From positions 1 to 64,000 of the forward strand of contig NZ_CAJGZM010000012.1 of assembly GCF_904846175.1 (NCBI RefSeq): 64,000 nt of DNA. The letters run 5' to 3'. Under the pieces are notes generated by a model. The model did no database searches, had not been told where the DNA came from, and worked only from the letters and a program-made list of their open reading frames with translations. The position numbers and the translations under genes were made by a program. Shown here piece by piece: positions 11,763-47,774 of the stretch (positions within the stretch are counted from its first letter, which is position 1; each line of letters starts with the position of its first letter). The DNA is from Psychrobacter immobilis. Its GTDB lineage: Bacteria > Pseudomonadota > Gammaproteobacteria > Pseudomonadales > Moraxellaceae.

Positions 11763-13217
11763 ATGTATAAAAAGCTAAGCTTCGTCCTAAGTTTGAGTGT
11801 CTTATCATCAGTGTCGATGTTGGCATCTGCACAAAACCTGTATATGAACGATCTAAAGCTGAAGGCAGATCTTGACTGGCTGGATACTCAAGGGGTCGCG
11901 CAGATTAGCACCAGTACTTGGCCGCTGACTGCCAATGAGATCAAACGCGCTTTAAATACCGCTAATGCCCAGACGCCAGCGCAGCAGCAGATCCTGCAGT
12001 CGGTACAAATGCGATTGAATCAGAATCGAGACTCAGTAGTAAAAGGGTCAGCCGCACTGCATATACAAACCGACAGAGATCAGCTACCACAAAAATTTGC
12101 TGACGATCAACTTGCGGGTCAACAGGCAAGCGTTGGGGTATCGCTTAGCGAAGCGGAGTGGGAATTTAATTTACAAGCCAATTTAAAAAATGACAAACTT
12201 ATCGATGACAGCTCAGATGTTAGCTTCGAAGGCTCATACCTTGCTGGTACTGCTGCCAATCAATGGTTAATCGCGGGTAAAATTCCGACTTGGTGGGGAC
12301 CTGGGCATGATGGTAGCCTTATTCGAGGTGATGCAAGCTTGCCAGTTGCAGGTTTTACCATGCAGCGTGATCAGCAAACTGCGCCGACATCTCCATATTT
12401 ATCATGGGTCGGACCTTGGCAGTATCAGCTATTTGCGGGTCAGTTAGAGGATTATCAGGCCATTCCAGATACTAAGCTATTTGGCGCACGCTTAACTGCT
12501 AGCCCATGGGAATGGTTAGAAGTCGGTGCGTCACGTACCTTTATGTGGGGCGGTGAAGGTCGTCCACAAAGTTTCAGCTCTTTTACCGATGCTTTATTGG
12601 GAACAAAAGATAACAATGATGATCCTAGTGTTAGCACTGATGAAGACCCCGCGAACCAGCTTGGTGGTTTTGATGCGCGCTTAAATTTAGCACCCTTAGT
12701 GAATGTGCCTGCGGGTGTTTATGCTCAATATGTGGGTGAAGATGAAGCAGGCGGCTTGCCAGCTAAAAACATGTATTTAGCCGGTGTTGATTATGCCTCT
12801 GCTGCTTATGGCAAGCCGTATCAGCTATATGCTGAGTATACGGATACCCGCACTAGTGGTGATATTAAAGGCATCTCTTATGAGCATTACATGTATAAAG
12901 ATGGTTATTATCAGCAAGGCTTCCCACTAGGCTATGCGCTAGGCGGCGATGCGGAAAGTATCGCCCTTGGTGGTCGCTTATGGCTCGATAACCGTAACTT
13001 TATCAATGCTAAGATTCAGCATGCAAAAGTTAATCAATCGGATCGAAGTACCAATCAAGCATTTCCAGCTAACGATAAGTTGACAGGTATCGATGTCGCT
13101 TGGGAGCATCAATACAATCCTAAAGCGCTTATCTCTAGCCGAGTTTGGGCAGTAGATTCAGATATCCAGTCCACTGATGTCGGCGTAGGCGTAGGTATCG
13201 AGCTGCAAACTTATTAA
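11763..13217 (+). CDS. wzi: Wzi-like capsule assembly outer-membrane protein
   Basis: The protein has a classical signal peptide (about residues 1-23, ending ASAQ) and a mature domain rich in alternating strand patterns typical of an outer-membrane barrel. The family blocks WLIAGKIPTWWGPGHDGSLI and FMWGGEGRPQSFSSF are present, as is an N-terminal DLDWLDTQGVAQI repeat. Wzi-type proteins anchor or organise capsule at the outer membrane. At 484 residues it is normal for the family. It ends the first gene block; a strong terminator follows. Separation from wza by about 640 bases implies a different transcript for the export genes. Confidence 0.85.
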   Translation: MYKKLSFVLSLSVLSSVSMLASAQNLYMNDLKLKADLDWLDTQGVAQISTSTWPLTANEIKRALNTANAQTPAQQQILQSVQMRLNQNRDSVVKGSAALHIQTDRDQLPQKFADDQLAGQQASVGVSLSEAEWEFNLQANLKNDKLIDDSSDVSFEGSYLAGTAANQWLIAGKIPTWWGPGHDGSLIRGDASLPVAGFTMQRDQQTAPTSPYLSWVGPWQYQLFAGQLEDYQAIPDTKLFGARLTASPWEWLEVGASRTFMWGGEGRPQSFSSFTDALLGTKDNNDDPSVSTDEDPANQLGGFDARLNLAPLVNVPAGVYAQYVGEDEAGGLPAKNMYLAGVDYASAAYGKPYQLYAEYTDTRTSGDIKGISYEHYMYKDGYYQQGFPLGYALGGDAESIALGGRLWLDNRNFINAKIQHAKVNQSDRSTNQAFPANDKLTGIDVAWEHQYNPKALISSRVWAVDSDIQSTDVGVGVGIELQTY

Positions 13218-13240
13218 GTCCAAGTTGAATGTATTTAAAT

Positions 13241-13277
13241 AGGAGTGGTTACTGAGGTAACCACTCCTATTTTTTTG
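13241..13277 (+). terminator. Rho-independent terminator after wzi
   Basis: A perfect 12-bp stem (13241-13252 with 13257-13268) closes a TGAG loop and is followed by a T-rich tract. It lies 24 bases after the wzi stop codon and ends the fnl-wzi transcription block. Confidence 0.9.
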
Positions 13278-13857
13278 TCAAAAATTTAATGATTTGCTGG
13301 GGCTTATTCTCTATTTTGAGAATAGGAATAAAAATAAGATAGATTTTTATCATTCAACAGAAATGTTACGGAAAACAAGTACATATTGCCTAAATATTTG
13401 TAGAAAATTATTGGATATCACTGCTAGCCAATTCCACCAATTGCCGTTTCATAAACTCTTACATCGCCACAAAGTTAACCACTACGCCATTTTCATATAA
13501 CGCGCTACCTAGCTATTTATCTAACTAAAAGCTAATCGTATAACTACTATTAGATAACTGCTCTACGCTATTTTTTATATAACCTCTTAATCGATGTAAG
13601 TAATGCATAAGTTTTGTTGCTAATTGTTTTTAGATGGTATATAAGTATATAAGAATATACGAATATGTAAATTCTATTAGTTGTATATAACTATTAATTA
13701 GTTAACAAAAGTTTTCCATACTATGACTAATATTCTTACTAAGACGCTTTTTGTTTGTAATGTAGTTATTTAATGAGTTTGTAATAGCCTTACATCATAA
13801 AAATTACGCTATCGCTAATAGCTGTTACTTATAGCTGCAGTTTACAAGGAGTTCATT
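13278..13857 (+). other. 580-base non-coding leader upstream of wza
   Basis: No credible gene is present. It is AT-rich and holds several inverted repeats: TATTCTC/GAGAATA at 13305-13324, and TTATCTAA/TTAGATAA at 13517-13524 and 13550-13557. Its 3' end has AAGGAG at 13845-13850 for wza. I saw no JUMPstart/ops sequence (GGCGGTAG), so RfaH-type antitermination is not supported here. Confidence 0.55.
13614..13643 (+). promoter_or_regulatory. Candidate promoter for wza-wzc
   Basis: TTGTTG at 13614-13619 and TATATA at 13638-13643 are 18 bases apart, and a TGG precedes the -10 as in extended -10 promoters. Transcription from here would give a leader of about 200 bases before wza. Confidence 0.35.
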
Positions 13858-14931
13858 ATGCGCGGATATCCATCTCAATTATCGACGATAACGTGCTTAG
13901 TACTCTTCACTGTCATATCCGGCTGTAGCAGCATTAATTCTGGACTACAAGTGGGAAACTTACCGCCTAGTGGTGCCTTTGTCGCAGAAAACGGTATTAC
14001 CTTCAATGTTCAGCCATTAGACATGTCGACCTTACCAGCTAAGCAAGCTCCAGTACTCGACAATGAGCTATATAACTTGGTCAAATCCTCAGGGCCAGTG
14101 AGTTACCGTATTGAAGCAGGAGACGTCATAAGTATAGTGCTCACTGACTATCAAAATATTAGTGCATCAACATCAAGTCTGACTGTCGATCAGCAGGGTT
14201 TTATTCAGTTTCCACTGATCGGACGCCTGAAGGCGAGTGGCATGAGTGTGCCGCAGTTCACTGCCGTATTACAAGGTAGGTTGCAACGCTATCTCAAATA
14301 CTCAGACCCGCAAGTCAAAGTCATTAACTATCTTGGTAGCAAATTTTTTATCGATGGCGAAGTTACTAAATCTGGCGAGTTTTCTATTACTGATGCACCA
14401 GTTACCTTATATGGTGCTTTGTCCATGGCAGGGGGTGCCACTGCGACAGGCGATTCAAATAATATTGTATTAAATCGCCGAGGTAAAAATTATAACTTAG
14501 GGTTGCAGTCACTAAGGCAGATGGGGCTATCTGCCAACCAAATTTATATACAAGATCGCGATTCTATTCATGTCAATAGTCAAAGCCGTAATAAAGTCTA
14601 TGTCTTAGGAGAGTTTGGTCGAATCGCACCAGTCGCTATACCTGAGCAGGGACTTAGCTTAGCGCACGTATTGGGTGAATCAAGTGGTTTAAATGCGAGC
14701 ACAGCCAATGCTGCCAAAGTATATATTGTCCGTGATAACTCACAGTATAACTATACCAATATCTATTATGCCGATATGCAGACTATTACCGGCTTAGCAC
14801 TGGCAAATCGCTTTGAGATGCAGGCCAATGACATTCTTTACGTTGATCCTACGGGTCTCACTCGTTGGAACCGTGTGATCAGTGCTCTTTTACCATCAAC
14901 TTCTGCAATCAGGTCAATCACAGACTTTTAA
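13858..14931 (+). CDS. wza: Wza outer-membrane polysaccharide export lipoprotein
   Basis: Wza forms the octameric outer-membrane channel that exports capsule. The N-terminus is a lipoprotein signal with lipobox ISGC, Cys23 being the lipidated residue. A Poly_export domain follows (YRIEAGDVISIVLTDY near residues 82-97; VDQQGFIQFPLIGRLKASG), then two SLBB domains (KFFIDGEVTKSGEFSI; NKVYVLGEFGRIAPVAI) and a C-terminal amphipathic segment with DILYVDPTGLTRWNRVISALLPS, the likely outer-membrane helix. The length, 357, is close to that of Wza proteins. A clear AAGGAG ribosome binding site precedes the ATG. wzc follows after 100 bases, with no wzb between. Confidence 0.92.
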   Translation: MRGYPSQLSTITCLVLFTVISGCSSINSGLQVGNLPPSGAFVAENGITFNVQPLDMSTLPAKQAPVLDNELYNLVKSSGPVSYRIEAGDVISIVLTDYQNISASTSSLTVDQQGFIQFPLIGRLKASGMSVPQFTAVLQGRLQRYLKYSDPQVKVINYLGSKFFIDGEVTKSGEFSITDAPVTLYGALSMAGGATATGDSNNIVLNRRGKNYNLGLQSLRQMGLSANQIYIQDRDSIHVNSQSRNKVYVLGEFGRIAPVAIPEQGLSLAHVLGESSGLNASTANAAKVYIVRDNSQYNYTNIYYADMQTITGLALANRFEMQANDILYVDPTGLTRWNRVISALLPSTSAIRSITDF

Positions 14932-15031
14932 GCCATAACAATTATGGCGTTTGATAGTATCATCGCGAGCCTTAAATAACGGAATAAAAAAATAAGCTGA
15001 CTGACTAATACTAATTGATGAAGACATAGTT

Positions 15032-17302
15032 ATGGATAACAATGTTATGGATAACCATTCAAAAGACTTATCTAAACACAATACTGACAAAGATAATAAT
15101 CTACTGGGTCTGCTTTTAGTATTACTACGCGGCTGGAAGATCATTGCTCTGTTTGCAATTTTGGGTTTAATAATAGGAGTGTTATATGTTCGCTATGAAA
15201 ATCCTTCCTTTAAATCAGATGCTCTGATTCAAATCGATGAAACCTCTCAAAACTTATCAGGTCTAGGAACGAATATAGCAGAGCTATTGCCACCTGATGA
15301 TAGTTCAGTACAAGCGCAGATTAAGCTAATAAGATCCCGCATGGTCTTAGAGCCAGTGGTGGATTTGCTTCATTTGGGTATTAGGTTGAATGACCCGGCA
15401 GTGAATAAAATAGATAGAATAAGAAACAACCAAACGAACGTACAAATCAATAGTGCTGATGGCGTTGTACTTGAGACTAGTGATGGTCGAGTACAAGTTA
15501 GTGAGTTTAATGTGACAGAAGACTATTTAGATAAACCCTTCACTTTATTAAGAACTAACACAGGTTTTGTTTTGAGTAGTGGCAGTGAGAAATTTAAAGG
15601 ACAGTTAAATAAAGCTCATCGTTTCACAGGTAAAAACGGTCTCATTGAAATTACGGTCAATGAGCTACCTACTGGTGAACACTCTATCGATATTACCAAG
15701 CAATCACTGCAAATCACCACGGACTCTATCAATAGTGCTTTGTCAGTAGTGGAAGAAGGCACTAAGACCGGTATGATCGAGCTGTCTTTGTCAGGTCTAA
15801 ACCAGAAGCAAGTCAGCCTAATATTAGAACATATTGTACTGTCTTATAGTGCACAGGACCAAACGCGCAGCTCGGAACAAACGATCAAAACTATTGAGTT
15901 TATGAAAAAACAAATCCCAGCATTAAAACAAAAACTCAAAGAATCAGAAGCGATATTTAATAAATTTCGTGAGAATTCTGGCACCATTGATGTGGCACAA
16001 GAAGCGTCAATATTGCTTAGTGAAAATGCTGGACTTGATACACAAATTAGTGAGCTTAAGCTAAAAAGAGCAGATATAACTACTTACTATACCAATGAGC
16101 ATCCTTTAGTAATCCAGATAAACGAACAACTTAGCGTATTGAATGCTAGAAAGCAGCAAATCGACAATACCATCAGTGCGCTACCAGAAGTACAAAGAGA
16201 GTTTTTGACCCTCTCTGAGGATGTAAACATCGATAGAGAGATTTATCTGACTATCCTTAAAAACTACGAGCAGCTAAAAATTGTCAAAGCAGGCGAGGTC
16301 AGCGACGCCCGTATCATTGATTTGCCTATCAATACCAATAGAACCATCACCCCTAAAAAACAATTAATAATGATGTTATCCACCCTAGCAGGTGCTCTGC
16401 TAGGTGCTTTATTAGTATTTATTATGCATCTGCTTAGAAATGTTGTTAAAGATCCTGAACGTATTGAGTCTAAGACAGGGGTGCCAGTCATCGCCACCAT
16501 TCCACGCTCTGCTGTATTATCACGATTAAGTACTAACAAAAAAGCAGCCCCTCGTATGCTGGCTCATGTTGATAATAGTAGCTTGAGTTATGAAGCGATC
16601 AAAAGCCTTCGAACTAAACTTATATTGAGTATGCCAGCGGTGACTTTAGGTAGCCAAAAGGCAAAAGTACTTTTGTTAACTGGTGAAAGCCCAGGCGTTG
16701 GCAAGTCGTTGATCTCTGCTAACTTGGCAGAAGTCTTTGCTCAGCTGAACAGAAAAGTTTTGCTCATAGATGCCGATATGCGTATGGGTGAGCTGCATAA
16801 GGTTTTTGGTATAAGTCAATATGATGGCTTAGCAGATTATCTGTTGCTAGATGATAATAGTTTACAACTTAGCAAGAGCGCCGATGCTCAAATAATGAAT
16901 GATGTTTCTGATTTTAGTATAGGGAACTTTATTCATCCTAGTGGTATAGAGCATATTGACTTTATGCCACGTGGAAAGCATCCGAGTGATCCTGAATCGC
17001 TACTAATCAGCGAAAAGTTTGATACTTTGTTAACAGCATTAAAGTCTCAGTACGACTATATTATCATCGACTCACCACCATTATTGGCCGCTTCAGATGC
17101 AATGGTGTTAGCTCAGCATGCAGACAAAGTACTCATGGTAACCAGATATGATGATTCAATAGAAAAACAGTTAATCTATGCCGTTAAGCAAATGCATGAA
17201 TCTGATATCCAAGTAGATGGCATTATTCTCAACGATGTAAGGCAAGGGCTTATGAGTAAATATAGCTATAATCATCGCTATGCCTATGCCGACAGTCGGT
17301 AA
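15032..17302 (+). CDS. wzc: Wzc polysaccharide co-polymerase and BY-kinase
   Basis: An inner-membrane tyrosine autokinase that controls chain length and couples polymerisation to Wza. The N-terminal Wzz domain has a first membrane segment near residues 35-55 (GWKIIALFAILGLIIGVLYV). A long periplasmic coiled region follows, with a second membrane segment near 448-470. The cytoplasmic kinase has Walker A GESPGVGKS (about 551-559), Walker A' LLIDADMR (about 577-584) and Walker B YIIIDSPP (about 675-682). The tail has four Tyr in its last 14 residues (KYSYNHRYAY), the autophosphorylation cluster. An in-frame ATG at 15047 is an alternative start. No Wzb phosphatase is encoded nearby. Confidence 0.92.
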   Translation: MDNNVMDNHSKDLSKHNTDKDNNLLGLLLVLLRGWKIIALFAILGLIIGVLYVRYENPSFKSDALIQIDETSQNLSGLGTNIAELLPPDDSSVQAQIKLIRSRMVLEPVVDLLHLGIRLNDPAVNKIDRIRNNQTNVQINSADGVVLETSDGRVQVSEFNVTEDYLDKPFTLLRTNTGFVLSSGSEKFKGQLNKAHRFTGKNGLIEITVNELPTGEHSIDITKQSLQITTDSINSALSVVEEGTKTGMIELSLSGLNQKQVSLILEHIVLSYSAQDQTRSSEQTIKTIEFMKKQIPALKQKLKESEAIFNKFRENSGTIDVAQEASILLSENAGLDTQISELKLKRADITTYYTNEHPLVIQINEQLSVLNARKQQIDNTISALPEVQREFLTLSEDVNIDREIYLTILKNYEQLKIVKAGEVSDARIIDLPINTNRTITPKKQLIMMLSTLAGALLGALLVFIMHLLRNVVKDPERIESKTGVPVIATIPRSAVLSRLSTNKKAAPRMLAHVDNSSLSYEAIKSLRTKLILSMPAVTLGSQKAKVLLLTGESPGVGKSLISANLAEVFAQLNRKVLLIDADMRMGELHKVFGISQYDGLADYLLLDDNSLQLSKSADAQIMNDVSDFSIGNFIHPSGIEHIDFMPRGKHPSDPESLLISEKFDTLLTALKSQYDYIIIDSPPLLAASDAMVLAQHADKVLMVTRYDDSIEKQLIYAVKQMHESDIQVDGIILNDVRQGLMSKYSYNHRYAYADSR

Positions 17303-24822: not shown

Positions 24823-25821
24823 ATGTTGACTAATAGCACTATTCTCATCACTGGCGGCACAGGTTCATTTGGTAATACCTTTTTACCCATGACCTTAGAA
24901 AAATATAATCCTAAAAAAAACATCATCTTTTCACGTGATAAGATGAAGCAGTGGGAAATGGCAAAAAAATTCGTCGGTGACGATAGAGTGCGCTTCTTCA
25001 TCAGCAATGTCCGTGATAAAGAGCGCTTATATCGTGCATTAGACGGCGTTGATTATGTTGTCCATGCTGCTGCTACTAAAATTGTACCTACTGCTGAATA
25101 CAATCCCTTTGAATGCGTAAAAACCAATATTAATGGTGCAATGAACTTAATTGATGCCTGTATTGATAAAGGCGTTAAAGGTGTGGTTGCGCTCTCTACT
25201 GATAAAGCCAGTAGCCCGATTAATCTTTATGGTGCTACTAAACTTGCTTCCGATAAATTATTCGTAGCGGGTAACGCTTATTCTGGAGAGCATGGCACTA
25301 AGTTTTCAGTGGTACGTTATGGTAATGTCATGGGTTCTCGTGGCTCAGTGATTCCTTTTTTTATGTCTATTAAAGATAAAGGTGTGCTACCGATTACAGA
25401 CGAGCGTATGACTCGCTTTATGATTTCATTAGAAGATGGCGTTAAGTTAGTTTGGCATGCATTCGAAGATATGATCGGTGGCGAGATTTACGTCAAAAAA
25501 ATACCTTCTATGAAGATGGTAGATTTAGCCCGAGTAGTTGCACCAGAAGCCAAGCAAGAGATTATAGGCATTCGTCCCGGTGAGAAACTACATGAACAAA
25601 TGATTAGTAGCGAAGACGCTTGTTACACCTATGAGTATCCTGAGCATTTCAAAATTTTGGCGCTGATACATAACTGGGCAATATGTCCAAAACGAATCAA
25701 AGATGGCAAAAAGGTACCTAAAGGTTTCGTGTACGCCAGTGACAGCAATTCAGAGTGGATGTCTGATGGCGATCTACAAGATTGGCTTGAGATAAACTAC
25801 GAAAAAATAGGGAGTATATAA
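24823..25821 (+). CDS. pseB: UDP-GlcNAc 4,6-dehydratase (inverting), pseudaminic acid pathway
   Basis: The first Pse enzyme: it dehydrates UDP-GlcNAc and inverts C5. Seen: GGTGSFGNTF NAD(P) motif at about residues 11-20, HAAATKIVPTAEYNP, Lys128 in LSTDKASSP, Tyr136 and Lys140 in YGATK, and RYGNVMGSRGSVIPFF. Unlike fnlA, the YxxxK Tyr is present, as in FlaA1/PseB. The ATG at 24823 has AGAGGGA upstream and gives a normal 332-residue protein; an ATG-less extension to 24727 is rejected. The stop is followed directly by the pseC ATG. Confidence 0.9.
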   Translation: MLTNSTILITGGTGSFGNTFLPMTLEKYNPKKNIIFSRDKMKQWEMAKKFVGDDRVRFFISNVRDKERLYRALDGVDYVVHAAATKIVPTAEYNPFECVKTNINGAMNLIDACIDKGVKGVVALSTDKASSPINLYGATKLASDKLFVAGNAYSGEHGTKFSVVRYGNVMGSRGSVIPFFMSIKDKGVLPITDERMTRFMISLEDGVKLVWHAFEDMIGGEIYVKKIPSMKMVDLARVVAPEAKQEIIGIRPGEKLHEQMISSEDACYTYEYPEHFKILALIHNWAICPKRIKDGKKVPKGFVYASDSNSEWMSDGDLQDWLEINYEKIGSI

Positions 25822-26988
25822 ATGATTCCCTATGCCCGCCAAGACATCAATCAGCAGGATATTAATGCTGTTGTTGAAGTCCTTAAATCAGATTTTTTGA
25901 CTCAGGGCCCTCAAGTTCCTGCATTTGAACAGGCCATTATAGATGCGTGTGATGCCAAGTATGCTGTTGCTGTTAATAGTGCGACATCGGCATTACATAT
26001 CGCTTGTTTGGCTTTAGGGTTAGGCAATGACGATTGGCTTTGGACAACACCTAATACTTTTGTCGCTTCAGCAAATTGTGCTCTGTATTGCGGTGCCAAA
26101 GTTGATTTTGTTGATATCGACCCTCGTACTTATAATCTTTGCGCGAAGCAATTAGAGAAAAAGCTTATTGCAGCGGAAAAGGTAGGAAAACTACCCAAAA
26201 TATTGATCCCTGTGCATTTCAGTGGTCAATCATGTGATATGCAAGCGATCCATGAGTTGGCTAAAAAATATAGTTTCAAAATTATTGAAGATGCCTCACA
26301 TGCGATTGGTGGTAAATATCAAGATGCAGCCATCGGTAATAGCCGCTATAGCGATATCACTATATTTAGTTTTCATCCGGTCAAGATAGTCACCAGCGCT
26401 GAAGGTGGCGCTGCCGTGACCAATAGGGCAGATCTAGCAGAAAAAATGTATTTACTCCGCAGCCATGGGATTACCCGTGATGAAGAGTTGATGACGCAAG
26501 ATATGGATGGCCCTTGGTATTATCAGCAAATTGCATTGGGCTTTAACTATCGAATGACAGAGTTGCAAGCCGCTCTTGGGCTATCACAAATGCAACGGTT
26601 AGAAGAGTTTGTTATCAAGCGTCACGAGCTAGCGTCTCGCTATGACGAGCTACTTCACGATCTACCAATTACCTTGCCCTGGCAGCACCCCGACAGTTAT
26701 TCAGCCAGGCATTTATACGTCATTCGTCTGCAATTAAAACAAATTAATACCACCCATCTTGATGTGTTTAACGCGCTGCGGGCGGCAGGAATTCAAGCTA
26801 ATCTGCATTATATCCCTGTACATATGCAGCCCTATTATCAAAGGCAAGGGTTTGAATCGGGTCAATTCCCTGAAGCGGAACAGTATTATAATGAAGCAAT
26901 CAGTATCCCCCTGTTTTCAGCGATGACTGAAGGGCAACAAGACACTGTATGCTCGACGCTGAAAACCATATTGAGTAAAGAATCATGA
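25822..26988 (+). CDS. pseC: UDP-4-amino-4,6-dideoxy-AltNAc transaminase
   Basis: A PLP-dependent sugar aminotransferase of the DegT/DnrJ/EryC1 family that aminates the PseB product at C4. The N-terminal MIPYARQDINQQDINAV, VAVNSATSALHIACLALGLG (PLP phosphate site), EDASHAIGG (Asp contacting the PLP ring) and FSFHPVKIVTSAEGGA with the Schiff-base Lys (about residue 190) are all present. At 388 residues it is typical. It abuts pseB and overlaps the aldo/keto reductase start by four bases (ATGA), indicating translational coupling. Confidence 0.9.
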   Translation: MIPYARQDINQQDINAVVEVLKSDFLTQGPQVPAFEQAIIDACDAKYAVAVNSATSALHIACLALGLGNDDWLWTTPNTFVASANCALYCGAKVDFVDIDPRTYNLCAKQLEKKLIAAEKVGKLPKILIPVHFSGQSCDMQAIHELAKKYSFKIIEDASHAIGGKYQDAAIGNSRYSDITIFSFHPVKIVTSAEGGAAVTNRADLAEKMYLLRSHGITRDEELMTQDMDGPWYYQQIALGFNYRMTELQAALGLSQMQRLEEFVIKRHELASRYDELLHDLPITLPWQHPDSYSARHLYVIRLQLKQINTTHLDVFNALRAAGIQANLHYIPVHMQPYYQRQGFESGQFPEAEQYYNEAISIPLFSAMTEGQQDTVCSTLKTILSKES

Positions 26989-27869
26989 ATATCCTAGCGC
27001 ACAGTCACAAGCTTGCGCTAGGAACGGCGCAATTCGGACTGAAATATGGTCTAGCCAATATGGCAGATAAAGTACCAAGAGACATGGTTGAGCAATTACT
27101 TAAAGTAGCCAGCGCATTTAACATAACCATGCTCGATACTGCTATTGCTTATGGTGACAGCGAACAAGTCTTAGGTCTGCATAACCTTACGAAGTTCGAG
27201 ATAGTAAGTAAGTTACCGGCAGTGCCGTCCAATTGTCTAAACGTAGAAGAATGGGTGCTAGAACAAACGATGTCTTCATTAAAACGTTTAAAAACGGACA
27301 AATTGAACGACTTGTTATTACATAGGCCAGCCCAGTTGCTAGGGACAAACGGAGAGAAAATATATAAGTCGATATTAAAACTCAAAGAGCAGGGCATGGT
27401 AGACCAGATTGGAGTTTCTGTTTATGGTCCTGATGAGTTATCCGAGCTTATTAAAAGGTTTGATTTTGATGTTATTCAAGCGCCTATGAATATATTTGAT
27501 AGGCGCATGGAGAATACAGGAATGCTTAAACATTTGAAGAAAACAGGCGTAACTATCCATATTAGATCGGCATTTTTGCAAGGTCTTTTATTGATGCCAA
27601 GTGAAAAGATTCCAGTATATTTTGCTCCATGGGCACCATTAATTAAACAGTACCATCAGTGGTTAAATCAACAAAGCATTTCTCCTTTGCAGGCCTGCTT
27701 AAGCTATGTTAACCAACATAGTGATATCGATAAAATCATAGTCGGAGTAGATGATATTTGGCAGCTGAAACAAATAATTGCTGCAATTGATATTCCTATC
27801 ACTGACCTTCCTGACTTCTTACAATCAGTAGATGAAGGTTTGCTTAATCCGTCGAGGTGGCAGCGATGA
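26985..27869 (+). CDS. Aldo/keto reductase embedded in the Pse operon
   Basis: An NAD(P)H-dependent reductase of the AKR superfamily with TIM-barrel blocks: KLALGTAQFGLKYG at the N-terminus, MLDTAIAYGDSEQVLG with catalytic Asp and Tyr, IVSKLPAV with Lys, and DLLLHRP with His, so the DYKH tetrad appears complete. QIGVSVYGPDEL and VIQAPMNIFDRR match family positions. It overlaps pseC and the next gene by four bases each. It is not part of the known five- to six-step Pse pathway, so it probably acts on the nonulosonate or a precursor or branch sugar. The substrate is unknown. Confidence 0.78.
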   Translation: MNILAHSHKLALGTAQFGLKYGLANMADKVPRDMVEQLLKVASAFNITMLDTAIAYGDSEQVLGLHNLTKFEIVSKLPAVPSNCLNVEEWVLEQTMSSLKRLKTDKLNDLLLHRPAQLLGTNGEKIYKSILKLKEQGMVDQIGVSVYGPDELSELIKRFDFDVIQAPMNIFDRRMENTGMLKHLKKTGVTIHIRSAFLQGLLLMPSEKIPVYFAPWAPLIKQYHQWLNQQSISPLQACLSYVNQHSDIDKIIVGVDDIWQLKQIIAAIDIPITDLPDFLQSVDEGLLNPSRWQR

Positions 27870-28765
27870 CATTAAAATTGGGGGTCATCGGCTCATCTGA
27901 AGGTAATGGACATCCTTATTCGTGGAGCGCTATTTTTAATGGTTATGATTCGGTGGAAATGGAAAAATGTGGCTATCCTGTCATACCACGTTATTTAGAG
28001 CAGCAACAATGGCCTGCGAGTCAAATCAAAGAGGCAAGAGTTACTGCTATTTGGACGCAAGATATAGCGCTTTCTCGGCACATTGCCAAAGCCGCAAAAA
28101 TCGAGCACGTTGTGACTTGTTACAAAGATATGATTGGGCAAGTAGATGCCGTTCTGTTGGCGCGTGATGATGCCTATAATCATTTGCAGTATGCCGAACC
28201 ATTCTTACGTCAAGGCATCCCTATTTATATAGACAAACCCATTGCACTATCAATTAATGATTTAGATAGGTTATATGCATTAGAGTACTGTTCAGGTCAG
28301 ATTTTCACTTGTTCAGCGCTCAGATATAGCAAGCAGTTAGCCCTAACTACGACGGATAGGCAAAGTTTAGGGCATATAAAACAGATCATCGCATTTACCC
28401 CAAGATCATGGTCTAAATATGCTGTTCATATTATTGAGCCTGTGCTGAACATGCTCTCTGAGGGTGACGAGATAGTCGAAATGATTTCTCCTGCCTGTCA
28501 TAGAAGTGATGGCTCAGGTAGCCTAGCGGTTTGTTGGAGCAGTGGTATACAGACCAATTTTTTTGCGCTTGGTAATGGACAGTCTCCAATCTCGATTAGA
28601 GTATTTGGTACGAGTGGTTGGAAGGACTTTACATTTACAGATTCATTCTCAGCTTTTAAAGCAGCTTTGCAGGCTTTTATACAAGGTATCTCAGACAAGA
28701 AGGTAATGTCAGATAGAGCATTTAATACAACAGTGGTTCAACTGCTTGAAAGAGGTTGCCAATGA
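27866..28765 (+). CDS. Gfo/Idh/MocA-type oxidoreductase, short form
   Basis: A Rossmann-fold dehydrogenase-like protein of 299 residues, shorter than the usual 330-390 of the family. The N-terminus KLGVIGSSEGNGHPYSW takes the place of the common GxGxxG motif. QVDAVLLARDDAYNHLQYAEPFL, then PIYIDKPIALS (Asp-Lys-Pro in place of the usual Glu-Lys-Pro) and ALRYSKQLAL follow. The atypical dinucleotide loop leaves cofactor binding uncertain. The ATG at 27866 has GAGG eight bases upstream. It overlaps both neighbours by four bases, so it belongs to the same coupled set. Confidence 0.7.
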   Translation: MTLKLGVIGSSEGNGHPYSWSAIFNGYDSVEMEKCGYPVIPRYLEQQQWPASQIKEARVTAIWTQDIALSRHIAKAAKIEHVVTCYKDMIGQVDAVLLARDDAYNHLQYAEPFLRQGIPIYIDKPIALSINDLDRLYALEYCSGQIFTCSALRYSKQLALTTTDRQSLGHIKQIIAFTPRSWSKYAVHIIEPVLNMLSEGDEIVEMISPACHRSDGSGSLAVCWSSGIQTNFFALGNGQSPISIRVFGTSGWKDFTFTDSFSAFKAALQAFIQGISDKKVMSDRAFNTTVVQLLERGCQ

Positions 28766-29517
28766 AAGAGACGATCTTGATTACTGGTGGTACAGGTAAA
28801 TTCGGCAGGCAATTTGTCAAGCATTTTGCAACTAAGGGCTGGCAGGTGTTATTTACGACGACCTGTCAAAATAATGCCGATAAGCTAATGGCAAAGATAG
28901 GCAGTGACTATCGTTTGATGCCGCTAATAGTTGATTTTACTAAGCCGCAAGCAGTACAGGACATCATTAACCGCGTTCAAGGTTCTGGCTATACCATTAA
29001 TCACTTGGTAAATAATGCACGTAGTTTGGGTTTTTTGCAGACAGATTCATTAGGTCAGACCAGCCGTGAAGACTTTTTAGCTGAATATTTAATGGATGTC
29101 GTCGTACCCTATGAGCTATCAATGGGGCTATTCAATATTCAGCCAAAAGAGCTAAGCACCGTCACCAATATAGGTTCTCAGTACGGCGTCGTCGCTGCCA
29201 ACCCTGCTTTATATGAGGATTATCCAAGACAATCGCCTATTCAATACAGTGTTGCTAAAGCAGCATTGATACATTTAACAAAGGAGTTGGCTGTACGTTT
29301 TTCTGATTTCGACATAAGGGTTAATTGTATTGCCTATGGTGGTGTCAGTGGACGTGTTGATGATAGCTTTGAAGCCAGATACGCAAAGCTTACGCCAAGT
29401 GGTCGTATGCTATCTGAGTCTGAAATCATAGGGCCTCTAGATTTTCTAGTTTCGGAAAACTGTAAAGCAATCAATGGTCAAACCATTCAGGCAGATGGCG
29501 GGTGGACATTATGGTGA
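28762..29517 (+). CDS. Short-chain dehydrogenase/reductase, PtmA-like
   Basis: A classical SDR of 251 residues: LITGGTGKFGRQF (cofactor motif, about residues 6-18), VNNARSLGF, NIGSQYGV with the catalytic Ser region, YSVAKAALIHL as YxxxK, and the C-terminal INGQTIQADGGWTLW typical of the FabG-like fold. Its place directly before the CMP-sugar synthetase resembles ptmA-ptmB in Campylobacter flagellin-glycan loci, where the SDR role is also not firmly assigned. AGAGG precedes the ATG. It overlaps the gene before by four bases and the gene after by seven. Confidence 0.78.
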   Translation: MKETILITGGTGKFGRQFVKHFATKGWQVLFTTTCQNNADKLMAKIGSDYRLMPLIVDFTKPQAVQDIINRVQGSGYTINHLVNNARSLGFLQTDSLGQTSREDFLAEYLMDVVVPYELSMGLFNIQPKELSTVTNIGSQYGVVAANPALYEDYPRQSPIQYSVAKAALIHLTKELAVRFSDFDIRVNCIAYGGVSGRVDDSFEARYAKLTPSGRMLSESEIIGPLDFLVSENCKAINGQTIQADGGWTLW

Positions 29518-30215
29518 AACGTAGAATAGCTATTATTCCTGCTCGCGGCGGGTCGAAGCGAATCCCGAAAAAAAACATAACCGATTTTAATGGTCTGCCG
29601 ATGATTGCATGGACGATTAAAGCGGCGAAAGAATCTAGATTGTTTGATCGAATCTTGGTATCTACCGATGATTCAACGATAGCTGAGGTGGCAATAAACG
29701 CTGGTGCGGAAGTGCCTTTTCTACGTACTGATTGCGCTGATGATTATTCCACAGTAAGCGAGGCTACGACATTTGCTTTACAGCAGGCTATGGACTATTG
29801 GCAAGAAGAGTACAACGTGGTGGTCCAATTGATGGCTAATTGTCCATTACGAACTAGTGCGGATATCCAGTTGCTAGTTGCTACATTTGAAGCAAAGAAG
29901 CGCACGGCTCAAATTAGCTGCTTTGAATATGGATGGATGAACCCGTGGTGGGCGGCAACGATTGATGATGTAGGCAGACCCACTCAGATTTTTTATGAAA
30001 CGTTGAATCAGCGTTCGCAAGACTTACCAAAACTTTATTGTCCAACGGGTTCGATTTGGATATCTACAGTGAAAGCACTGGTAACCCATAAAACATTCTA
30101 CTCACCAGATCATACATTTGAGCCTATATCATTAAAAAGCGCAATGGATATAGACAGCTATGAAGATCTAAAGATTGCCAATGCATTATTACTAGCTAGT
30201 GATTACTCATCATGA
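29511..30215 (+). CDS. pseF: CMP-pseudaminic acid synthetase
   Basis: A cytidylyltransferase of the NeuA/PseF family that activates the finished nonulosonate with CTP. Seen: IAIIPARGGSKRIPKKNI (nucleotide loop, residues about 5-22), ILVSTDDSTIAEVA, VVVQLMANCPLRTSADI and a C-terminal AMDIDSYEDLKIANALL with the metal-binding Asp pair. Length (234) is as expected for PseF. Pse rather than Neu or Leg is inferred from the adjacent pseG and pseI. The start is ATG at 29511; an in-frame GTG at 29502 and a GTG at 29514 are alternatives. Confidence 0.85.
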   Translation: MVKRRIAIIPARGGSKRIPKKNITDFNGLPMIAWTIKAAKESRLFDRILVSTDDSTIAEVAINAGAEVPFLRTDCADDYSTVSEATTFALQQAMDYWQEEYNVVVQLMANCPLRTSADIQLLVATFEAKKRTAQISCFEYGWMNPWWAATIDDVGRPTQIFYETLNQRSQDLPKLYCPTGSIWISTVKALVTHKTFYSPDHTFEPISLKSAMDIDSYEDLKIANALLLASDYSS

Positions 30216-31318
30216 CAGCGAAAAAGTACAAGATCGTCTTTCGTTGTGATGCTTCTATTCAGATAGGAACTGGTCATGTGATGCGTTGCTTGACTTTAGC
30301 TAATGAAATGGCTCAACAAGGAGCTGAATGTATTTTTATATGCCGTAGACACCACGGGAATTTGATTGAGGAAATTCAGCAGCATGGATATAAAGTGTAT
30401 TCACTTCCTTTAGAAAATGACTTGTATATTGAAACGAATAATAAAACTGTACTTGCCCACGCTGATTGGCTGGCTAGTACACAACACAGAGATGCGGAAT
30501 TAAGTATCTCGATAGTAAAGGCGATACAACCTGATTGGTTGATTGTTGATCATTACTCTTTAGATGAGAGTTGGGAAAAAGGACTGCAACCCTATTGCAA
30601 AAAGATAATGGTCATCGATGATTTGGCAGATCGAAAGCATGATTGTGACATTTTACTTGATCAAAACTTTGGTCGTGATCCGCAAGACTATGCCGCCTAT
30701 GTTAATGAAGATTGTGAATTACTATGTGGATCTAAATATGCATTACTGAGGCATGAATTTGCACAATGGCGAAGCTACAGCTTAGAGCGGCGTCAGCATA
30801 ATAAATTGGCAAGTATTTTGATTAATTTAGGTGGGGTTGATAAGGATAATATTACAACCAAAATCCTGAAAGGACTGCAAACGAAATCTTTACCTGATCA
30901 CTGTTCAATGAACATCGTTATGGGTTCGACATCACCATGGATTGAAGCAGTAAAACAACAAGCCGCAATAATGCAGTGGCGTACGGTAGTAAAGGTAGGG
31001 GTAGATAATATGGCTGAGCTAATGGCCAGTAGTGATTTGGCTATTGGCGCCGCAGGGTCAACATCATGGGAGCGATGCTGTTTGGGACTTCCAACTATTA
31101 TGCTGGTTTTAGCGGATAACCAACAGGTTATTGCTAACGCATTAGAAGCTGTGGGAGCTGCACTGACATTCGATATAACTATGTTGGAGGCTGAGCCACT
31201 AGCATTTGCTAAAGGGATAGAGTCAGTCGCACCTAAGATGAGAGAGATGAGCAAGACGGCCAGTAAAGTTACTGATGGGCTTGGAGCGTCACGCCTCTCA
31301 AGATTTTTATTTCAATAG
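30212..31318 (+). CDS. pseG: UDP-2,4-diacylamino-2,4,6-trideoxy-altropyranose hydrolase
   Basis: PseG removes UDP from the 2,4-diamino sugar before condensation. It is a GT-B fold, MurG-like hydrolase. The N-terminal RCDASIQIGTGHVMRCLTLA holds the catalytic-type His of the GTGHVMRC loop. DWLIVDHYSLDESWE, KKIMVIDDLADR and GAAGSTSWERCCLGLPTIML (donor-binding loop) are present. The ATGA overlap with pseF gives coupling. At 368 residues it is somewhat longer than the Campylobacter enzyme, which I recall as about 270-280, partly through inserts; it otherwise looks complete. Confidence 0.88.
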   Translation: MTAKKYKIVFRCDASIQIGTGHVMRCLTLANEMAQQGAECIFICRRHHGNLIEEIQQHGYKVYSLPLENDLYIETNNKTVLAHADWLASTQHRDAELSISIVKAIQPDWLIVDHYSLDESWEKGLQPYCKKIMVIDDLADRKHDCDILLDQNFGRDPQDYAAYVNEDCELLCGSKYALLRHEFAQWRSYSLERRQHNKLASILINLGGVDKDNITTKILKGLQTKSLPDHCSMNIVMGSTSPWIEAVKQQAAIMQWRTVVKVGVDNMAELMASSDLAIGAAGSTSWERCCLGLPTIMLVLADNQQVIANALEAVGAALTFDITMLEAEPLAFAKGIESVAPKMREMSKTASKVTDGLGASRLSRFLFQ

Positions 31319-31334: not shown

Positions 31335-31982
31335 ATGAAAATCAGTTTCCTATGTAATGACCTTAGCCATCCCGTTAATGACTATCTATATGCATGGATA
31401 AAAAAGAACAATAGCAAACATGAGATAGAGCTAGTGCGTCAGAAAAAGGATCTGTCCGGAGGTGACATATTATTTCTCATTTCCTGTACAGAGATTATAA
31501 ATAGCCAAGATCGCATGGCTTATATTAACTGCCTAGTAATTCATGCCAGTGACTTACCTAAAGGTAGGGGCTGGAGCCCACATATATGGAGCATTATAGA
31601 AGGTAAGGAGGAGCTGACTTTAACACTGTTAGAAGCTAATAATAAGGTTGATAGTGGCAAAATATGGAAAAAATTAAATTTTCAAGTACCCAAACATGCA
31701 CTATGGAATGAAATTAATGCTCAGTTATTTGAAAAAGAAATTGAGTTAATAGATTTTGCGGTTGGTAATTTTAAGAGTGTTTCAGCTAAGTCACAAGCCC
31801 TAGATATAGAACCGACGTATTATCCAAAGCGGACACCAAATGATAGTGAAATTGATCCCTATAAAAGTATTGAGAGCCAATTTGATAAAATTCGAGTCTG
31901 TGATCCTTATCGTTTCCCCGCATATATAGAGCTTTATGGAGAGAGATATAAGCTTATTCTGGAGAAGGTAAATGACAAATAA
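31335..31982 (+). CDS. Formyltransferase-like enzyme in the PseH position
   Basis: A 215-residue protein related to the catalytic domain of methionyl-tRNA formyltransferase. IHASDLPKGRGWSPHIWSI with His70 and VDSGKIW with Asp106 match the His and Asp of the formyltransferase site; their 36-residue spacing equals that of E. coli Fmt as I recall it. The usual catalytic Asn two residues before the His is Val here. No GNAT-type PseH is found in the operon, so this enzyme probably acylates the 4-amino group (C7 of Pse) with formyl from 10-formyl-THF. The start at 31335 has AAAGGA six bases upstream. It overlaps pseI by 11 bases. Confidence 0.72.
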   Translation: MKISFLCNDLSHPVNDYLYAWIKKNNSKHEIELVRQKKDLSGGDILFLISCTEIINSQDRMAYINCLVIHASDLPKGRGWSPHIWSIIEGKEELTLTLLEANNKVDSGKIWKKLNFQVPKHALWNEINAQLFEKEIELIDFAVGNFKSVSAKSQALDIEPTYYPKRTPNDSEIDPYKSIESQFDKIRVCDPYRFPAYIELYGERYKLILEKVNDK

Positions 31983-33033: not shown

Positions 33034-33088
33034 ATTGTAAGAATATAGGTAGGAGGGTCGAACGATTAAATATATTGGAGTGTATAAG

Positions 33089-33988
33089 ATGGATGTGTTT
33101 ATCGTAAGAACTAGACTACAGTCTTTAATTGTTGAAAAGATAATAAATGTAGAGAATATAAGTAGGTATATCTTAGTATTTTGTTATCTGGATAATAAAT
33201 ATGAAGATGACTCTGAATATTATACTACTTATAAAAAAATCAGGAAAAATGCTTTTTTTACTATAAGTGTATTTTGCAGTAGTAGAATTTCAGTCAATTT
33301 TTTAAAGTTTACCGTATTACAGTTAATGGCACTTATAACCAACGGTAAGATTTTTTTAGCCGTAATTGATAGCTATCCTTTCGCACTTTCAAATATATTT
33401 TTTCCTAGTTTAGAGATTAATACATTCGACGATGGCTCATACAATGTGATTAAGTCTTCAGTGTATTTTAATGAGAACGCTCTCGCTAGAAAAGGAGTAA
33501 AAGGACTTATTTCTAAAATGGTTTTCCCTAATGGGGGAGCTAAGTATTTAAGAGATAAAACCAAGCGTCATTATACCGTTTTCCCTGATTTAGATAATAT
33601 CGTAGAAAAAGATAGGGTAGTCAATCTTGATTGGGATTGGAGTGAACTGTTAGATAGCAGGGATTTAGATAAATTGCCGATGAATACTAATACTATTTTA
33701 TTAGGAACCGCGTTTCAAGATTTCAGCATTAGGCAGCAAGTAAAGCTTAAAAAAAACGTAATGAAAATCATTGATGATGTAGGGTTGTATATCATGCATC
33801 CGCGGGAAGAGAGTTGGTTTGAAAATACAAAAGCAGTTAAATTGCATAGTCCTGCAGAAGCAGTACTAAAGTATATGCAGAGTGCTAATAATAACGAATT
33901 AACCGTATACCATGTTGACACAACCGTCTCTTATTCCTTAAAAGGTAATGAGCATATCAGATTTATTGACTTGCTTTCTGAAGTTTGA
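33089..33988 (+). CDS. GT52-like sialyltransferase relative, candidate pseudaminyltransferase
   Basis: The protein resembles the GT52 lipooligosaccharide sialyltransferase (Lst) of Neisseria in several blocks: INTFDDGSYNVIKSS (Asp114-Asp115), HYTVFPDLDNI, ILLGTAFQD with Asp211 as candidate base, and YIMHPREE with His237 as candidate acid. These correspond, from memory, to FDDG, HYTIF, LLGSPDKE and HPRQ of Lst. It follows pseI by 55 bases, which suggests that it uses the CMP-Pse-type donor. No membrane anchor is obvious. The ATG at 33089 has GGAG eight bases upstream; a GTG at 33080 is less likely. Overall similarity is modest. Confidence 0.68.
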   Translation: MDVFIVRTRLQSLIVEKIINVENISRYILVFCYLDNKYEDDSEYYTTYKKIRKNAFFTISVFCSSRISVNFLKFTVLQLMALITNGKIFLAVIDSYPFALSNIFFPSLEINTFDDGSYNVIKSSVYFNENALARKGVKGLISKMVFPNGGAKYLRDKTKRHYTVFPDLDNIVEKDRVVNLDWDWSELLDSRDLDKLPMNTNTILLGTAFQDFSIRQQVKLKKNVMKIIDDVGLYIMHPREESWFENTKAVKLHSPAEAVLKYMQSANNNELTVYHVDTTVSYSLKGNEHIRFIDLLSEV

Positions 33989-46868: not shown

Positions 46869-47774
46869 ATGTCAATTGCGTCTATTACGTCAACTGCCCA
46901 AGGATCTGCTACCGTTTTGGACGGTAAAGCACTTGCTAAACAAATAGAACAGCAACTGAGTACGCGTGTAGACGCTATTAAAGCTAAGACAGGACGTACC
47001 CCAAGCCTAGCGACGATATTGGTCGGTGACGATCCTGCTTCTGCGACTTATGTGCGTATGAAGGGCAATTCTTGTAAGCGTGTCGGCATGGATTCTATAC
47101 GAGTTGAGATGCCAAGTGTGACAACCACCGAAGAGCTAATGGCTAAAATAGACGAGCTTAATAGCAATCCAGACGTTCATGGTATTTTGCTACAGCATCC
47201 AGTACCCGCGCATATCGATGAGCGCGCTTGCTTTGAGCAGATTGATTTGGCAAAAGACGTCGATGGCGTGACTTGTTTGGGCTTTGGTCGTATGGCGATG
47301 CAGCAGTCCGCTTACGGCTCATGTACCCCGCAAGGTATCATGCATTTATTAGAGCATTATAATGTTGAACTTGCAGGTAAAGAGGCAGTGGTCGTCGGTC
47401 GCAGTGCTATCTTGGGTAAGCCAATGGCGATGATGCTATTAAATGCCAACTGTACGGTAACGATTTGCCATTCAAGAACGCAAGATCTAGAGTCGCATAT
47501 TAAGCGTGCTGATATCGTAGTTGGCGCAGTGGGTGTGCCTGAGCTGATTAAAGCTGATTGGATTAAAGCAGGCGCGGTAGTTATCGATGCAGGTTTCCAT
47601 CCAACGGATAATGGCGGCGTTGGTGATATCGAGTTGCAAGGTATAGAAAGTATTGCCAGTGCTTATACACCCGTTCCCGGCGGCGTTGGACCGATGACCA
47701 TTAATACCTTAATTCGTCAAACGGTTGATGCGGCCGAAAAGTCTGCTGGTTTAGACAATAGTGCAGTCAGCTGA
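46869..47774 (+). CDS. folD: Methylenetetrahydrofolate dehydrogenase/cyclohydrolase
   Basis: A bifunctional cytosolic enzyme that interconverts 5,10-methylene- and 10-formyl-THF, the latter a formyl donor for purines, fMet-tRNA and sugar formyltransferases. Seen: [25 protein letters not shown] with the catalytic Lys region, [52 protein letters not shown] (NADP site) and [15 protein letters not shown]. Its N-terminus is about 15 residues longer than E. coli FolD. GGAG lies upstream of the ATG. It overlaps psiE by one base. Confidence 0.95.

Follow-up and report, generated by a model that had tools for sequence, protein, structure and literature searches.

A formyltransferase-family gene in the PseH slot of a Psychrobacter pseudaminic acid operon probably directs 7-N-formylation

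The pseudaminic acid operon of the window, by which we mean the whole 64,000-nucleotide stretch of Psychrobacter immobilis DNA analysed here, has a formyltransferase-family gene (hereafter type A) in the slot of the acetyltransferase PseH, and we consider it highly probable that its product is a 10-formyl-THF-dependent sugar N-formyltransferase acting at the PseH step and giving Pse5Ac7Fo for a surface (probably capsular) polysaccharide. Pseudaminic acids are sialic-acid-like sugars carried by flagella, pili, and capsules, and the N-acyl groups on them belong to the features of the cell surface. We infer the formyl donor, the acceptor, the order of the steps, the product, and its use in a capsule as follows: type A would take the PseC product (UDP-4-amino-4,6-dideoxy-L-AltNAc) and formylate its 4-amino group, PseG, PseI, and PseF would then convert the formylated sugar to CMP-Pse5Ac7Fo, and the latter would enter a surface, probably capsular, polysaccharide. 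The preliminary description of this DNA had already predicted Pse5Ac7Fo, and comparison of sequences and of a predicted structure supports the prediction through 1) the fold of the protein; 2) its invariant His and Asp; 3) the lack of a PseH over cut-off in the genome; 4) the nine type A loci of our surveys, all nine GNAT-free; and 5) the tree of PseI. Against it stand the missing classical Asn, a fusion of type A with a GNAT domain (L090), eleven type A loci with weak GNAT matches, and the placement of one PseI (L174).

The host genome (G000; 3.12 Mb, 28 contigs, 99.94% complete) encodes the following genes in the operon, which succeed one another in the order listed:

24823..25821, + strand: pseB, UDP-GlcNAc 4,6-dehydratase (inverting); TIGR03589, 528 bits, cut-off 408
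25822..26988, + strand: pseC, aminotransferase, whose product is the predicted acceptor; TIGR03588, 583 bits, cut-off 424
26985..27869, + strand: aldo/keto reductase; PF00248
27857..28765, + strand: Gfo/Idh/MocA-type oxidoreductase; PF01408
28756..29517, + strand: short-chain dehydrogenase (PtmA-like); PF13561, and NF050062 at 86 bits, far below the cut-off of 350
29508..30215, + strand: pseF, probable CMP-Pse synthetase; TIGR03584, 175.9 bits, below the cut-off of 205.7
30212..31318, + strand: pseG, UDP-sugar hydrolase; TIGR03590, 334 bits, cut-off 154
31335..31982, + strand: type A formyltransferase, 215 residues, an open reading frame in the PseH slot between pseG and pseI; PF00551
31972..33033, + strand: pseI, pseudaminic acid synthase; TIGR03586, 498 bits, cut-off 340
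33080..33988, + strand: glycosyltransferase family 52 type protein; PF07922, 41 bits

In this profile search of the window, PseB, PseC, PseG, and PseI exceed their NCBIfam cut-offs and PseF falls below its own; with that qualification, the five pse genes named in the preliminary description are indeed in the operon and PseH is absent from it. The type A frame runs from an ATG at 31335 to a stop at 31980-31982, starting 16 bases past the stop of pseG, and its end overlaps the start of pseI (31972). A PseG-fused acetyltransferase, of the kind found in related operons, was considered and rejected for the window, since its PseG has 368 residues without a GNAT match in Pfam. A PseH encoded elsewhere was looked for in the whole host genome, where the best match of TIGR03585 has 17.8 bits (cut-off 93.1), and PseH over cut-off was found in none of six named type A genomes picked by hand for this search (best match 57.8 bits). 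Genes of the Wzi, Wza, and Wzc types at 11763-17302, together with several glycosyltransferases, indicate a capsule-type locus. The aldo/keto reductase, Gfo/Idh-type, and short-chain dehydrogenase genes (26985-29517) lie between pseC and pseF; of the 80 named type A loci described below, 18 also have an aldo/keto reductase, and in 16 of these 18 no PseF above 100 bits was found; a frame of 679 residues with a weak PseF match is found in survey loci L043, L050, L063, and L179. Downstream of the polysaccharide genes, at 46869-47774, there is a FolD-type gene (THF dehydrogenase/cyclohydrolase), which may be a flanking housekeeping gene; FolD is a source of 10-formyl-THF.

The assignment of type A to the Formyl_trans_N superfamily, with a formyltransferase fold, is confirmed by profile and predicted structure. 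The protein matches PF00551 with 31.1 bits (cut-off 26.1), over profile positions 62-176 of 181 only, and among NCBIfam profiles no equivalog exceeds its cut-off: TIGR00460 (methionyl-tRNA formyltransferase) reaches 63.0 bits, below 201.5, and TIGR03585 (PseH) is absent from the matches. An AlphaFold2 model built with an alignment of 81 family members has a pLDDT of 95.9 and a pTM of 0.91. Its best solved match is 1zgh (Z 21.9, rmsd 3.0, 206 residues aligned), followed by HypX (Z 20.3) and WbkC (18.8), and also by Fmt and ArnA, the latter in the structure with formyl-THF and UMP (2bln; Z 18.5, rmsd 2.9, 205 aligned). The structure prediction that had been suggested as a check thus returns a formyltransferase fold in the model; the folate pocket was compared at this level of overall fold. 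The residues singled out in the preliminary description are where it placed them:

31536..31538, + strand: codon of Val68, in the position of the classical catalytic Asn; V, I, or L in 81/81
31542..31544, + strand: codon of His70; invariant in 81/81
31650..31652, + strand: codon of Asp106; invariant in 81/81

The spacing of 36 between His70 and Asp106 is kept in all 81 aligned relatives, and it is also the correct classical spacing, because the alignment with ArnA is free of gaps between its His and Asp.

The site of the classical Asn deserves separate treatment. Position 68 of the type A family is Val in 77 sequences, Ile in three, and Leu in one, so the whole subfamily lacks the Asn and the change is old rather than local. 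An Asn is found two residues ahead of the His in the rows of ArnA, Fmt, and FdtF, as well as in the Fmt-like L032 and the ArnA-like L076; the same position is Val in 1zgh, Cys in all seven rows of a second formyltransferase type (type B, below), and Ile or Gly in the plasmid homologues L065-L068. Lack of the Asn is therefore nothing unusual among homologues and, taken alone, does not imply an altered reaction; the residue is also a questionable criterion for nucleotide-sugar N-formyltransferases, since it is missing in 1zgh and type B too. The earlier suggestion that Val68 points to an altered catalytic arrangement needs a qualification: a Val shared by the subfamily, at a site where other homologues also lack Asn, is in itself no evidence for it. 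The classical Asn may be dispensable for formyl transfer. The replacement in 81 of 81 sequences could also be taken as the mark of a degenerate or repurposed protein that has lost formyl transfer, and the second-best structural match, HypX, has the formyltransferase fold and another chemistry; we nevertheless regard such a loss as very unlikely, because the family is under strong constraint, with the His, the Asp, and the residues HAS-LP-G-GW invariant in 81/81 rows from several phyla, because these operons, otherwise complete, yielded no other candidate for acylation at N7, and because the solved 1zgh also lacks the Asn.

Type A and GNAT acetyltransferases exclude each other in our surveys of PseI-centred loci. 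Of 249 genomes in the GTDB-family survey, 27 have a PseI over cut-off, and 26 operons were annotated beside that of the window (L060-L064 are outside this count). A GNAT acetyltransferase is encoded in, or fused into, the operon of 21 of the 27, without type A: 12 exceed the PseH cut-off, eight more are recognised by Pfam (some as PseG fusions), and L053 was detected by a GNAT profile built partly from proteins of this same survey. Four of the 27 have type A and no GNAT match, and two (L058 and L059) have neither. The phylum survey covered 388 genomes, and all 61 loci with PseI over cut-off were annotated, a GNAT match being one with E up to 1e-3 on either strand anywhere in the stretch. Type A occurs in six of the 61, none of which has a GNAT match, as compared with 35 of the remaining 55 (Fisher p 0.004 to 0.011, depending on the score threshold and ignoring relatedness). 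Taken together, the surveys comprise 87 loci, the window being common to both; GNAT is nearby in 0/9 loci with type A and in 56 of the other 78. In two of the nine, L166 and L167, the type A proteins are only remotely related to that of the window (29% and 35% identity) and had contributed to the search profile; leaving these loci out gives 0/7. Absence of PseH by itself proves little, because many loci without type A also lack GNAT (20 of 55 in the phylum survey, two of 23 in the GTDB-family survey). In the PseI operons of L058 and L059, which have no PseG or GNAT match, a protein of 379 residues (ATP-grasp in L058) and one of 300 residues are encoded between pseF and pseI. L063 (G261), with pseG and pseI each split into two reading frames and PseH intact, is apparently a decaying operon or the product of sequencing errors.

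The family extends far beyond the genus. A scan of a genome collection returned 449 stretches, 363 with relatives of type A, the best 80 of which were kept; these come from Alpha-, Beta-, and Gammaproteobacteria, Desulfovibrionaceae, Bacteroidota, Verrucomicrobia, Myxococcota, and others. The closest named relatives, among the matches listed, are from Psychrobacter immobilis S3 (97%), P. luti (83%), and P. phenylpyruvicus (69%). In 79 of these 80 loci PseI is encoded no more than 300 bases from type A, and in 78 the same holds for PseG. Under a broader GNAT profile, 12 of the 80 show GNAT or PseH matches (E up to 1e-3); eleven are weak (17-68 bits) and 1.0-9.3 kb distant, and the exception is L090 (9989-11206), where type A is fused to a PseH-like GNAT domain (160 bits) in one frame of 405 residues. 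No relative was found in viral contigs. Plasmids gave four distant formyltransferases, of which two share an operon with, or adjoin, a gene for a PIG-L deacetylase. One plasmid, of Mariluticola halotolerans (L065), carries a pse operon in which a PIG-L gene accompanies a formyltransferase poorly matched by either type (87 bits for type A, 29 for type B). Among the four plasmid PseI loci scanned, out of 50 matching records, two Bacillota loci have PseH-like GNATs, one further Bacillota locus and that of Sinorhizobium NGR234 lack matches to GNAT and formyltransferases alike, and none has a PseJ-like gene. The tree of the formyltransferases has weak deep support and long branches, and we draw no conclusion from the placement of L065, L072, and L073 in it.

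Type B was found in operons that keep PseH. In L055-L057, from the genus of the window, PseH coexists with a second, 1zgh-like formyltransferase (FHMTDVPYGRGGSP) and with a PIG-L deacetylase directly 3' of pseI, a pair checked in L057 with Pfam PF21553 and PF02585. The association is tight: type B occurs in seven of the 61 loci of the phylum survey and PIG-L in exactly those seven (Fisher p 2e-9, uncorrected), and in the GTDB-family survey both occur in the same three of the 26 fetched loci, the window having neither. This makes ten type B loci in the 87 (L055-L057 and L166-L172), all with PIG-L; eight have a PseH-like GNAT and the other two, L166 and L167, have type A directly beside type B. 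A formyltransferase in a pse operon therefore need not replace PseH, and type A could in principle formylate elsewhere (at N5, on the free sugar, or on CMP-Pse) while an unrecognised acetyltransferase encoded elsewhere in the genome acetylates N7, an arrangement to which the joining of type A and PseH domains in L090 lends some weight. We find it improbable, given that type A occupies the position of PseH, that the nine survey loci with type A are devoid of GNAT, and that the PIG-L accompanying type B in 10/10 survey loci is found, at a distance of 7 kb, in just one of the 80 named loci with type A, none of which has type B. The simplest reading of these gene combinations is that PIG-L would strip the acetyl group derived from GlcNAc (C5 of Pse), that type B would formylate there, and that N7 would be served by PseH or by type A. 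We give an even chance to the corresponding two-slot rule, in which either PseH or the Asn-less type A acylates N7, and N5 is rewritten by PIG-L followed by the 1zgh-like type B. Among known sugars, the capsule of Psychrobacter marincola has an N5-modified Pse with 5-N-lactoyl and 7-N-acetyl groups, P. arcticus has Pse5Ac7Ac (both PMC7281560), and Halorubrum has 5-N-formyl-legionaminic acid, for which a formyltransferase gene was proposed (PMC6137143).

For the most part, the phylogeny of PseI agrees with a swap of the enzyme for N7 acylation alone, in which the remaining pathway would have been kept. In a tree of 87 PseI, six of the seven from loci with type A only fall in one group of 25, together with 17 PseI from GNAT loci, and the PseI of L039 (type A) is sister to that of L043 (PseH), both from the genus of the window (SH-aLRT 99). 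The PseI of L174, the seventh locus, groups with those of type B loci. PseI and type B go together only in part: six of the ten type B PseI cluster together, along with one type A PseI, and the other four are elsewhere.

How does type A relate to known systems? It shares with PseH (TIGR03585) the slot between pseG and pseI and the presumed acceptor, but PseH belongs to the unrelated GNAT family and uses acetyl-CoA instead of formyl-THF. ArnA (N-terminal domain), WbkC, VioF, WlaRD, FdtF, and QdtF have the fold of type A (Z 17-19) and nucleotide-linked amino-sugar acceptors; unlike type A, they are longer and act on other sugars, and ArnA and FdtF keep the Asn. The closest solved relative by both sequence (41.7 bits) and fold is 1zgh, a 'methionyl-tRNA formyltransferase' of Clostridium thermocellum, which differs from type A in having the GGSP motif of type B and is thus probably a sugar enzyme misnamed as a tRNA enzyme. 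PseJ (PDB 6ci2, 6ci4, 6ci5, and 6edk) resembles type A in being a formyltransferase with compact chains (192 and 217 residues) and a name from the pseudaminic pathway. PseJ of Anoxybacillus is said, from 2018 work by Reimer et al., to formylate the PseC product. The gene of PseJ, like that of type A, reportedly lies in a pse operon without PseH. Type A might then be a plain orthologue of PseJ, a point of classification compatible with its acting at the PseH step: the reaction is presumably the same and the PseJ chains align to the family profile nearly in register (chain 12-107 to profile positions 12-109). We think this doubtful, although possible, because PseJ scores 25.7 bits with that profile, compared with 77.1 for 1zgh and 58.8 for ArnA, which puts it near the bottom of the 40 PDB matches listed.

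Formyl groups on Pse are themselves not new, as the preliminary description had noted for marine and Pseudomonas glycans: Pse5Ac7Fo is reported for the marine Pseudoalteromonas distincta KMM 638 (review PMC3210612; reference list of PMC7281560) and a relative with 7-N-formyl and 5-N-hydroxybutyryl groups for the pilin of P. aeruginosa 1244 (PMC6222762). Together with the PDB chains named PseJ, this means that the use of formyl for acetyl in the Pse pathway was already known. Flagellin islands of Geobacillus without PseH, some with formyltransferase genes, are described in PMC5109656, and a formyltransferase gene in a dTDP-sugar cluster was proposed there as a stand-in for an acetyltransferase. 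The apparently new elements are how widely the Asn-less type A occurs, the exclusion of GNAT in the surveys, and the pairing of type B with PIG-L; neither the Asn-less subfamily nor the pairing with PIG-L is described in the literature covered, a partial selection with few subscription journals, and the titles retrieved under the name 'PseJ' are unrelated.

Our analysis suggests that the exchange of an acetyl-transferring for a formyl-transferring enzyme in pse operons recurs in many bacteria. Type A offers a natural system in which to ask whether formyl transfer needs the classical Asn. The combinations of the two-slot rule, if the rule is true, predict Pse5Ac7Ac, Pse5Ac7Fo, Pse5Fo7Ac, and, in L166 and L167, a di-N-formyl Pse. 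By connecting genes with the substituents at 5-N and 7-N, such a rule would allow the structures of pseudaminic acids to be predicted from genomes.
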